Virus record (IMG/VR): IMGVR_UViG_3300046167_000348
Location: 1 to 21,333 of that record
Strand: one strand, 5' to 3'
DNA length: 21,333 bases
DNA from: a virus
Under the pieces are notes generated by a model. That model did not search any database and had not been told where the DNA came from. It saw only the letters and a program-made list of their open reading frames with translations. Shown in pieces: positions 8,169-18,468 of the stretch (positions are counted from its first letter, which is position 1; the number at the start of each line of letters is the position of its first letter). A program made the translations under genes and the position numbers.

Positions 8169-8432
8169 CTATCCAATCAAAGAACGGCGGCGGCGCGTCT
8201 TGCCATCTTCTTCACCAACCCCAAGCAAACCGCCAGGTGTCGTGAGAATAGTTGATCGGCGCCCCTTCTTCATAAGGTCAATCGCTTCATCTTCAGCAGC
8301 GCCAACAGAAGTCGCACTCGCAGCAGCAGCCTGTGACTCACCACCACTAGCAGTGCCAACAGACGCGCCAGAACCAGCATTGCCAGTAAAGTCACCACCG
8401 CCAAACGTAGTATTCGCTGATCGTTTCAACAT
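8169..8432 (-). CDS. Gly/Ala-rich small protein, C-terminal segment
   Basis: The segment reads MLKRSANTTFGGGDFTGNAG and contains GRRSTILTTPGGLLG, then a basic C terminus (TRRRRSLIG). The (R)GRRSTILT..GLLG and KT.LG pattern is one I associate with a small protein located between terminase and portal in many phages. No good ribosome binding site precedes its ATG, and it overlaps the 8392-8763 segment by 41 nt in another frame. The two may be one protein split by an indel near 8424-8426, with a C-rich Gly tail, or two genes. Confidence 0.55.
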   Translation of the reverse strand: MLKRSANTTFGGGDFTGNAGSGASVGTASGGESQAAAASATSVGAAEDEAIDLMKKGRRSTILTTPGGLLGVGEEDGKTRRRRSLIG

Positions 8433-8763
8433 TTGTCAAAGCAGTGTCAGTTCCGGTATCAAGCGTGGTGGTTGTGTCTGTGCCTGTATCAGTTGTGGTG
8501 TCAGTCGTAGTAGCAGTCGTTGCAGCAGTAACAGAAGAATCATTGTTGTCGTTCTTCATCATTTCTGCGTTAGCAGCGTTTGCTCTGGCCTGCCTACCAG
8601 CAAGGTCTCGTTGATAAGAAGCATTCTGCTCTTTAACGCCCAAGTCCATTAAAAGAGTGTCAGTCGCACTGTTCTTAGGAAGATCCGACACACTCCCGCC
8701 GCCGCCTTGGCTCTTGCCGCTCTTTGGTTGAGAACTTCCACCACCACCACAAAAACCACCCAT
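8392..8763 (-). CDS. Gly- and Thr-rich small protein, N-terminal segment
   Basis: The segment begins MGGFCGGGGSSQPKSG, typical of the small Gly-rich protein upstream of portals, and contains a low-complexity Thr/Asp tract of about 30 residues (TTTDTTTDTGTDTTTT). A good AAGGAT site precedes the ATG. Its final residues (ISEYYVWRW) look out of frame, and the family's expected GRRSTILT tail lies in the next frame at 8169-8432. I think the full gene is 8169-8763 with one indel near 8424-8426. Function unknown. Confidence 0.6.
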   Translation of the reverse strand: MGGFCGGGGSSQPKSGKSQGGGGSVSDLPKNSATDTLLMDLGVKEQNASYQRDLAGRQARANAANAEMMKNDNNDSSVTAATTATTTDTTTDTGTDTTTTLDTGTDTALTNVETISEYYVWRW

Positions 8764-15248: not shown

Positions 15249-15998
15249 TTAGATGCCATACATTTCTTCCCGAAGATCTTCTGCCCCGTTCCAATAGAAC
15301 GTGTTAGGGTTGACGGGTATGACCTCTCTAATATCTTCTGCGCTGCCTGCGCGCAGGAACTTTTCAAGCCGAGCGATCTGCTTCTTGGCCTTGCCAAGGA
15401 TCTCTGTTGGATCGCCGTCTTCAAGCATGTTGGTTTTCTTTGATGACACATAAAGAAACTTGACCACCTGGTTGCCTCGGGCCTTCTGATAGATCGCGCG
15501 TTGCAGTTGATGCTCTGGGGACATCTTGCTTGGGATGCGTCCCGTTGTTTTTAGATCAATCACTACGCCGTGATCGGGAAACACAAAGTCAAGGTAGCCG
15601 ATCACAGGGATCTCAAAGTCATCTGTCTTGGCTGTGATGCTGATCTTTGTTTGCCCGTCTTCAGGGAACTCAGGCTTGCCGTAATGCTCAAGCTCTTGGA
15701 GTGTAAGCTCCATGCACGGCTCAATCATGGCGCGCTCTTTGGTAATCTTTTCGTCAGCCATGAAGAACATGCTGTCAAACTTTTCCAATGCCTGATCCAG
15801 CGCGCCGGCTTTGTGCAGCTTGCCGGTCAGTGTGTTGGCAACTGCTTCCTCTGTGCATATGCCACGCATTGCAGCGGCGCCCATAGGTGTGCGCTTCTTG
15901 AATAGATATGAGGCCACCCAAACGTCTGGCGCGTTAGTCCAGAGGTTGATTGATGATGCTGACAGGTGCTTTATGCCGTGCTTTTCAAAACCGTTCAT
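15249..15998 (-). CDS. PD-(D/E)XK nuclease (Cas4/RecB-like)
   Basis: The 249-aa protein has the core motifs of the superfamily: SASSINLWTNAPDVWVASYLF near the N terminus, GYLDFVFPDHGVVIDLKTTG with the metal-binding Asp and the D-x-K catalytic pair, and QLQRAIYQKARG matching the QxxxY motif. No cysteine cluster for a Cas4 iron-sulfur site is evident. It would act as a phage exonuclease in recombination or end processing. Its ATG overlaps the stop of the RuvC-like gene (ATGA), so they are coupled. Confidence 0.85.
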   Translation of the reverse strand: MNGFEKHGIKHLSASSINLWTNAPDVWVASYLFKKRTPMGAAAMRGICTEEAVANTLTGKLHKAGALDQALEKFDSMFFMADEKITKERAMIEPCMELTLQELEHYGKPEFPEDGQTKISITAKTDDFEIPVIGYLDFVFPDHGVVIDLKTTGRIPSKMSPEHQLQRAIYQKARGNQVVKFLYVSSKKTNMLEDGDPTEILGKAKKQIARLEKFLRAGSAEDIREVIPVNPNTFYWNGAEDLREEMYGI

Positions 15999-16465
15999 GC
16001 TGTTAGCTTTCCGTATAGGGCCAAGAGACAGGCCTCACTTCTGCCATCGTCCTTGACACGTTTAAACAGGTCAGCCTGTGCAGGCCATCTCTGGCTTGCG
16101 AGTGATCGGCTGAGTCCTTTTTCTTTGTTCAGTCCAAGGTGCGACTTCCACTTAGCCGGCGTGACCATTGTCATGGGCAGCTTGTGCGCTGCGATAGCCA
16201 TCTGCGTGGCGCCGTAGGCCTGGCCGAAACGGAACATGCTGCTGACACCGTTGCCTCTGACGGCACTGACCTGCTCCAAGATAACATGATGCGGCTCATC
16301 GCCCTCGGGTGTGAGTATCTCGTGCAGCTCATACAGGTTCAGCTCTGTCTTGCCTTTGATGTTTTTATAGACCGGCATGTCATGCACCTCGACGCTGTTG
16401 CTGTCAGGCCAGTAGAATGCAATCGCACCAGTGAAGCCTGGGTCTATGCCGACAAAGACTGTCAT
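15995..16465 (-). CDS. RuvC-like Holliday junction resolvase
   Basis: The 156-aa protein opens MTVFVGIDPGFTGAIAFYWP, the RuvC GIDPG motif with the first catalytic Asp at residue 8. A second acidic residue is in HHVILEQVSAV, and the closing motif is DDGRSEACLLALYG, where phage members often have Glu in place of the bacterial Asp. It would resolve branched DNA during replication or packaging. It overlaps its neighbours by 4 nt on both sides (ATGA). Confidence 0.88.
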   Translation of the reverse strand: MTVFVGIDPGFTGAIAFYWPDSNSVEVHDMPVYKNIKGKTELNLYELHEILTPEGDEPHHVILEQVSAVRGNGVSSMFRFGQAYGATQMAIAAHKLPMTMVTPAKWKSHLGLNKEKGLSRSLASQRWPAQADLFKRVKDDGRSEACLLALYGKLTA

Positions 16466-16644
16466 GCTTGATCTCGGATCTTGATGCCGTTGAAGTTAAG
16501 AAAGAAGAAGATTGCTTCTTCAGTTAGATCGCGCAGGGTTGGGTCTTGCCCATCCATCTTTGCCCGATTGTCTTGCAGAACGCGCATGCCGTCAGCAAGC
16601 TCACACTTGATGCGGTGGTTCCACTGCTCTTTCTTTTGTTTCAT
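16462..16644 (-). CDS. 60-aa ribbon-helix-helix-like protein, candidate regulator
   Basis: MKQKKEQWNHRIKCELADGM... is the first gene of the leftward replication operon. Its layout suits a ribbon-helix-helix fold: a short strand HRIKCEL with alternating polar residues, a helix MRVLQDNRAKM, a turn, and a second helix RDLTEEAIFFFLN. This resembles Arc/CopG-type repressors, which bind short repeated operators. The start is preceded by GGGGGAAAG. It lies 14 nt from the first of four TTGCTAGCAA-like sites in the divergent promoter region. The fold is inferred by pattern and could be wrong. Its stop overlaps the RuvC-like start. Confidence 0.65.
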   Translation of the reverse strand: MKQKKEQWNHRIKCELADGMRVLQDNRAKMDGQDPTLRDLTEEAIFFFLNFNGIKIRDQA

Positions 16645-16657
16645 CTTTCCCCCAGGG

Positions 16658-16746
16658 TTGCTAGTCGTTCCCCATACATAGTGCTAGCAATTATTTTAAT
16701 CAAGTGCAATTTTTTGCTAGCAAAGGTATTGCAAAGTTGCTAGCAA
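16658..16746. promoter_or_regulatory. Four TTGCTAGCAA palindromic operator sites
   Basis: Perfect 10-bp palindromes TTGCTAGCAA lie at 16714-16723 and 16737-16746, with variants GTGCTAGCAA at 16681-16690 and TTGCTAGTCG at 16658-16667. Centres are spaced 23, 33 and 23 bp, so two pairs are arranged symmetrically. One site of each pair sits in the spacer of a promoter candidate. This is a strong operator arrangement. Confidence 0.75.
16675..16703 (-). promoter_or_regulatory. Leftward promoter candidate of the replication operon
   Basis: On the minus strand TTGATT (16703-16698) and TATGTA (16680-16675) are separated by 17 bp. The palindrome at 16681-16690 fills part of the spacer, and the site at 16658-16667 would lie at the start point. 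A bound regulator would block this promoter. Confidence 0.55.
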
Positions 16747-16757
16747 GATTCTATATG
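16729..16757 (+). promoter_or_regulatory. Rightward promoter candidate of the early operon
   Basis: TTGCAA (16729-16734) and TATATG (16752-16757) are separated by 17 bp, with the palindrome 16737-16746 in the spacer. The first early gene starts at 16791 behind an AAGGGAG site. The -10 is a 4/6 match, so the exact placement is unsure. Confidence 0.45.
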
Positions 16758-16790
16758 TAATGTATAGACAGAAACAAGGGAGACACGGAC

Positions 16791-16997
16791 ATGATTTTAA
16801 AGATGACAGCAATTCCGTTTGAAGGCGCAAACATCATTGTTGATTTTGGTGACGACTGCTACGCAGTCCAGCACTCAAACGGTAACGTCGGCATTTACGC
16901 AAAAGATGAAGATGAATTGTTGCGCATTAGCGACCGATTGATCCGCAACCCCAACAAGTCTGGCGAACAAATCGCAAAAGAAATGTGGGGCGCCTAA
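16791..16997 (+). CDS. Early hypothetical protein, 68 aa
   Basis: MILKMTAIPFEGANIIVDFG... is the first gene of the rightward early operon, with a clear AAGGGAG ribosome binding site. The N-terminal half looks like beta strands (NIIVDFGDDCYAVQHSNGNVGIYA) and the C-terminal half is helical (DEDELLRISDRLIRNP). No family is recognised. First early genes of phages often affect the host, but nothing in the sequence shows a target. Confidence 0.75.
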   Translation: MILKMTAIPFEGANIIVDFGDDCYAVQHSNGNVGIYAKDEDELLRISDRLIRNPNKSGEQIAKEMWGA

Positions 16998-17820: not shown

Positions 17821-18212
17821 TGGTCAAAGTAGTAGGCGTTGAAATAAACGTCATGTCATTTAAACGCGCATTTAATCGGGAACCCACTGAGGCAGAGATG
17901 GGCGCCTTGATGAGACTGAACGCCAAAAGAAACGAGGGGCAATGCGGTGGCAAGAATACAATCGAAAAGATTGACAGGCGCTTGGCGTCTGCATCCAAGG
18001 CTCGGGATTACATTAAGAGCCAGCCGCTCAAGCGCAACATTGTAGTCACCCGCACTGCTTGGTCTGTTAATTACCTGCTCAAGTTAGACTTGAAAAAATC
18101 ACAAATCATGGACGTTCTGCACATAAGTGAGATCGCTTATGATCGGGCCGTCAAGCAATACAATCTACCGCGTGACGGGATTGAAAGAAGGTTTAAAAAT
18201 GACAAGAAATGA
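17820..18212 (+). CDS. Early hypothetical protein, 130 aa, possible HTH
   Basis: The protein MVKVVGVEINVMSFKRAFNR... starts at the TAATG overlap. It is basic, with NREPTEAEMGALMRLNAKRN near the N terminus. A C-terminal segment, LKKSQIMDVLHISEIAYDRAVKQYNLP, has the spacing of a helix-turn-helix (K-x-Q-I-x-x-V-L-x-I-S...Y-x-R-A). This makes it a candidate DNA-binding regulator, but no family is identified. It overlaps the DUF6378-like gene by 14 nt. Confidence 0.7.
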   Translation: MVKVVGVEINVMSFKRAFNREPTEAEMGALMRLNAKRNEGQCGGKNTIEKIDRRLASASKARDYIKSQPLKRNIVVTRTAWSVNYLLKLDLKKSQIMDVLHISEIAYDRAVKQYNLPRDGIERRFKNDKK

Positions 18213-18468
18213 AATACTCAAAGAAGCCGCGCGCATAATCAGCACTGAAAGAGCGGACGATTATGGGCCGGCAGATGAATCGTTCAAGCGCATTGCTCAA
18301 CTTTGGACATCTTATCTTGATGTGGCTGTCAGCCCTATGGACGTTGCCAATATGTATATACTGAGCAAGGTGCAGCGTACATTAACGTCACCAAGCAAAG
18401 ATGATACATGGACAGATATTTGCGGTTATGCTGCATTGGCAGGGGAGATGATGACAAATGAAAAGTAA
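18199..18468 (+). CDS. DUF6378-like protein
   Basis: MTRNEILKEAARIISTERAD... carries the pattern R...YG....F..IA..W..YL......DVA...IL.K..R.......DTW.DI.GYAAL, matching DUF6378, a family common in phages with no assigned activity. The helix arrangement and acidic residues recall MazG-like nucleotide pyrophosphohydrolases, which is only a suggestion. I chose ATG 18199 behind a GAAGG site rather than the upstream ATG 18127, because the family starts at ...NEIL.EA. Confidence 0.8.
   Translation: MTRNEILKEAARIISTERADDYGPADESFKRIAQLWTSYLDVAVSPMDVANMYILSKVQRTLTSPSKDDTWTDICGYAALAGEMMTNEK

Follow-up and report, generated by a model that had tools for sequence, protein, structure and literature searches.

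A divergent early control region in a marine phage: a candidate 60-residue autorepressor, four GCTAGC sites and signs of their joint exchange

A divergent gap and its four palindromes

What controls the two operons that diverge from a 146-bp gap in the DNA of an uncultured marine phage? The window, meaning the whole stretch analysed, is the 21,333-base IMG/VR record IMGVR_UViG_3300046167_000348. Its terminase is about 50-58% identical to those of HTVC010P-type pelagiphages, which makes the window phage a relative of theirs, and phages of its group were found here in metagenomes only. The gap (16645-16790) separates a leftward operon, which comprises the replication genes and those beyond them, from a rightward early operon, and it is framed by the following genes.

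15995-16465, minus strand: gene for a RuvC-like Holliday junction resolvase (PHROG 1770, E = 5.8e-33), second in the leftward operon
16462-16644, minus strand: open reading frame for the 60-aa protein, a proposed DNA-binding autorepressor; it leads the leftward operon and its stop overlaps the RuvC-like gene
16791-16997, plus strand: open reading frame for a 68-aa protein, which leads the rightward early operon and has other genes in its place in many relatives

The RuvC-like gene served as the marker for finding relatives of the locus. Among the close relatives (L001-L030) the first rightward gene, from 16791 onward, varies beside an unchanged array and unchanged promoters, which makes the early region look like a site where small genes are swapped in and out. 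In the product of a further early-operon gene (18127-18468, plus strand) Pfam identifies DUF6378 (E = 1.5e-29); the phosphofructokinase label that related families carry in PHROGs looks doubtful. Elsewhere in the window a 123-aa open reading frame (8392-8763, minus strand) carries a threonine/aspartate-rich low-complexity stretch, TTTDTTTDTGTDTTTT.

An earlier, sequence-only reading had described two perfect and two imperfect palindromes in the gap, spaced 23, 33 and 23 bp, with one site of each pair in the spacer of a divergent promoter candidate. Both descriptions were borne out. The gap holds four CTAG-centred sites with those start spacings, and O2 and O4 lie within the spacers of the leftward and rightward promoter candidates, respectively.

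16658-16667: candidate operator O1, TTGCTAGTCG, three mismatches with the CTAG core intact; a full GCTAGC in L062-L069
16681-16690: candidate operator O2, GTGCTAGCAA, one mismatch, within the leftward promoter spacer
16714-16723: candidate operator O3, TTGCTAGCAA, perfect, upstream of the rightward -35 element
16737-16746: candidate operator O4, TTGCTAGCAA, perfect, within the rightward promoter spacer
16675-16703, minus strand: leftward promoter candidate, TTGATT-17-TATGTA, a consensus match with O2 in its 17-bp spacer
16729-16757, plus strand: rightward promoter candidate, TTGCAA-17-TATATG, a consensus match with O4 in its 17-bp spacer

An A-rich stretch lies between O2 and O3. Both promoter candidates recur in diverged relatives, again with a 17-bp spacer that contains a site: the rightward one as TTGACA-17-TATATA (L063) and TTGACA-17-TACATT (L144), the promoter scan recognising none in L062, L143 and L154, and the leftward one as TTGATA-17-TATATC (L142), with TTGATA/TTGCAA-17-TATATC and similar forms in other relatives.

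Conservation of the sites and their pairing with the regulator

The number of sites is weak evidence on its own. It does not convince because matches to the palindrome with up to two mismatches are not enriched in the whole window (16 against 17.9 expected) and because 79 of 1000 Markov-simulated windows contained a cluster of at least four CTAG within 90 bp. It is conservation, rather than count, that makes the array real as judged by comparison with relatives. All thirty close relatives, in which the 60-aa protein is 90-100% identical, keep the four sites. Diverged relatives were found through the RuvC-like anchor and protein alignment, the small protein being 48-71% identical, and in 13 of them the sites are the best-conserved part of the gap: mean conservation is 0.96 in site columns versus 0.76 outside them (p = 3e-5; 13 intergenic sequences less than 90% identical). 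Six relatives (L062, L063, L064, L066, L068 and L069) have full GCTAGC at all four sites in the layout of the window, and the imperfect copies in the window are therefore weakened versions of a four-fold array. Across 10 genome records, perfect or near-perfect clustered sites occur at this locus only. L145 and L154-L157 carry one more CTAG in the pair closest to the regulator gene, at its midpoint (12 + 11 bp), which hints at a third register of binding.

We compared 78 RuvC-anchored loci, which are mutually related and in part redundant. The sequence-only reading had proposed a search for the repeats beside homologues of the small protein in related phages, and they were found there: all 41 loci that encode a protein of this type, recognised by its WNHRI motif, carry four or more CTAG in a 90-bp stretch upstream, and none of the 37 lacking it has two. 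Part of this co-occurrence is shared descent, the gene and the sites being adjacent, and taken alone it could all reflect descent. Variation in layout is the stronger evidence that protein and sites are paired. Class A proteins go with site spacings of 23/33-34/23, class B proteins (L060, L061, L067 and L070) with 12/44-46/12, and L141 is intermediate at 22/34/13. Spacings of 12, 23, 34 and 46 roughly fit multiples of about 11.5 bp; we make no claim for such a periodicity, as a helical repeat of 10.5 bp with a constant offset of 1.5-2.5 bp describes them almost equally well.

Two further occupants of the regulator slot come with gaps of a different kind. In L149, L150 and L163 it is a fused protein of about 197 aa with an N-terminal segment that is RHH-like (ribbon-helix-helix-like) by eye only and has no Pfam match, a T5orf172/MUG113 GIY-YIG domain (E = 5e-8) and a C-terminal KEQWNHRI domain. 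The fusion, 196-197 aa long, lies at positions 1078-1671 of L149 and 1081-1671 of L163 and is also found in L150 and L251-L253. In the gap beside the fused form, TGTGCAA direct repeats (TGTGCAAGATGTGCAA, 55 bp apart) replace most GCTAGC sites; a single GCTAGC persists in the rightward promoter spacer, and in L149 and L163 this one retained site is O4. In L071-L081 the slot holds a NikA-like protein of 53 aa (Pfam E = 8.5e-6, just under the cut-off). This NikA/CopG-like protein resembles the 60-aa protein in being small and RHH-like and in its position upstream of the RuvC-like gene, but its sequence is different and the GCTAGC array is missing from the gap. Facing GTCAAC and TTGAC elements are retained there and may serve another pair of divergent promoters as their -35 boxes.

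Regulator type and phage background come apart in pairwise comparisons. L065 (class A) and L067 (class B) are 97% identical in RuvC and 54% in the regulator, and L060 (class B) and L149 (fused) are 96% and 40% identical, respectively; the two class B loci L060 and L067 share 74% identity in RuvC and 87% in the regulator. The type of regulator and that of the operator thus travel together between phage backgrounds, as would be expected for a cognate pair. The RuvC tree also scatters the regulator classes, several of its forks being weakly supported. This pattern indicates that related phages swap the regulator and its sites as one unit.

Fold and family of the 60-aa protein

The sequence-only reading had seen in this protein the strand-helix-helix layout of Arc/CopG repressors and had proposed structure prediction as a check; the helices were recovered in the models but the strand was not. 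The family has invariant residues K5, Q7-I12, E15, A17, M20, Q24, R38, T41-E43 and G53, so that an invariant QWNHRI block precedes two helices. AF2 monomer models, of low confidence overall, place these helices, themselves mostly at pLDDT 70-90, at residues 14-31 and 37-51 in the window protein and 14-27 and 33-47 in the L063 protein, which agrees with the RHH layout of two helices of about 15 residues each joined by a short loop. Residues 7-11 (5-9 in L063) are modelled as a short low-confidence helix rather than a strand (pTM 0.49 and 0.46), and a monomer modelled from few sequences can say little about an intertwined dimer. The DNA-reading ribbon of RHH proteins forms between two chains. 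Foldseek found no RHH match in the PDB with these low-confidence query models.

Sequence searches of Pfam, PHROGs and PDB with the protein and 25 relatives returned noise only. Pfam gave no RHH family match for the window protein, RHH_3 appeared below the cut-off (E = 0.2) in two of the 25 relatives, and none of the 25 family members matched PF03869 (Arc) at E values up to 10. A weak PHROG 3624 match to the first 20 residues led nowhere. No relatives of the protein were found by tblastn in annotated phages or in one genome per species from 84,980 bacterial and archaeal species.

Arc contacts DNA through Gln9, Asn11 and Arg13 (PMC12645479). In an hhalign comparison QWNHRI falls on Arc QFNLRW in register, with Q7, N9 and R11 on those three residues; the match is weak (P = 0.024, probability 2%), and an Arc family profile built from alphaproteobacterial genomes also matched in the expected register, at a score that column-permuted controls reached in 7/200 and 2/200 cases (1-4%). 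We regard an RHH fold as plausible, unproven and on balance probable, and we file the protein as an Arc-type autorepressor in function, not as a member of PF03869.

Known systems offer partial parallels. The immI region of P22 (Lederbergvirus), with Arc and Mnt, likewise has tiny repressors beside divergent promoters and operators overlapping those promoters, and the Q-x-N-x-R DNA-contact motif of Arc has a possible counterpart in register in the invariant Q-W-N-H-R. However, Arc and the 60-aa protein show no significant sequence relationship, Arc binds a single 21-bp operator that has TAGA boxes whereas there are four GCTAGC palindromes here, and P22 is temperate whereas the phages studied here are apparently lytic. 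The E. coli antitoxin RelB is an RHH protein that controls its own expression by binding repeated short sites, and relO consists of two adjacent 12-bp half-sites (PMC2812701) that resemble the 12-bp pairs of class B. Unlike the 60-aa protein, for which no toxin partner was identified, RelB has one, and relO accepts no extra spacing whereas the sites of a class A pair lie 23 bp from each other. Because that distance is wider than the roughly 11-12 bp separating adjacent Arc or RelB dimers, it is not obvious that dimers on a class A pair would touch directly.

A proposed early switch and its alternatives

Our findings point to the 60-aa protein as, very probably, an autorepressor of both divergent promoters. 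The repeats overlap the promoter candidate of the proposed repressor's own gene, itself a consensus match, and the two are conserved together, as autoregulation would have it. From the conserved sites, the promoter candidates, the co-occurrence and the joint exchange we infer binding and repression by a protein of RHH-like fold. We consider it likely that this is a divergent early control region in which the leftward promoter drives synthesis of the 60-aa protein and this protein binds the four GCTAGC sites and shuts both promoters, protein and sites forming a cognate, exchangeable cassette. As the protein accumulates it would occupy O1-O4 in the form of a small oligomer, RHH-type dimers being the likeliest. 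Since O2 and O4 lie between the -35 and -10 elements of the leftward and the rightward promoter candidate, respectively, occupancy there would shut both promoters, ending early rightward transcription and limiting the protein's own operon of replication genes and onward, an effect that is most likely Arc- or Cro-like. O1 and O3 would add strength through cooperativity, and exchange of cognate protein and sites as a unit would yield differing binding specificities or spacings.

The palindromes might instead be bound by a regulator from the host, or by some other phage protein, that times the divergent promoters, leaving the 60-aa protein as a mere neighbour with another role. That binding by the 60-aa protein is a prediction, that AF2 and Foldseek do not confirm its fold and that the promoters look sigma-70-like, hence reliant on host machinery, would all suit this reading. 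We think it unlikely, however, given that layout tracks the class of the 60-aa protein even where the neighbouring gene does not, that the NikA-like replacement in the slot goes with loss of the sites, and that clustered sites are confined to this locus in the 10 genome records. It is very unlikely that the array consists of iteron-like origin-binding repeats for replication initiation. It does head the replication operon, with repeats at roughly whole helical turns and an A-rich stretch between O2 and O3, but two of its sites lie within the spacers of two divergent promoter candidates that are conserved even in diverged relatives, and repeat sequence and spacing differ between classes while the divergent layout stays constant. 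We know of no replication initiator function for so small a protein.

The self-contained, autoregulated switch that the sequence-only reading had proposed is well supported as a divergent control unit, its sites, its promoters and the gene for the 60-aa protein being jointly conserved and jointly exchanged; what the evidence does not support is a switch of the lysogeny type. It is most improbable that the 60-aa protein is the prophage repressor of a classical lysogeny switch, even though the arrangement is like that of immunity regions and the cassettes are exchanged like immunity modules. The 13 relatives (31-35 kb, records that may be incomplete) contain no tyrosine or serine recombinase above the cut-off, one integrase match in the L163 record being sub-threshold, and the survey of one genome from each of 84,980 bacterial and archaeal species returned no relatives. 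Because no integrase or serine recombinase rose above the cut-off in these 13 relatives, the proposed autorepressor system looks less like a lysogeny switch than like a means by which lytic phages time early shut-off or, possibly, impose superinfection immunity.

It is quite possible, and we advance it tentatively, that these marine phages, which appear to be lytic, exchange their early control region in the manner of an immunity cassette. Its basis would be a new family of small repressors, each type with an operator layout to match: GCTAGC pairs at 23 bp or at 12 bp, or direct repeats of TGTGCAA. One fused form would carry the repressor domain after a GIY-YIG nuclease domain and a second DNA-binding-like segment, and would keep one old site in the early promoter. 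The variants of protein and operator on nearly identical backgrounds make up a ready-made set for learning how a tiny repressor reads the sequence and spacing of its sites. They also prompt one to ask what phages that seem to be lytic would gain from diversifying and trading such cassettes, for example an escape from superinfection immunity or a way to impose it.
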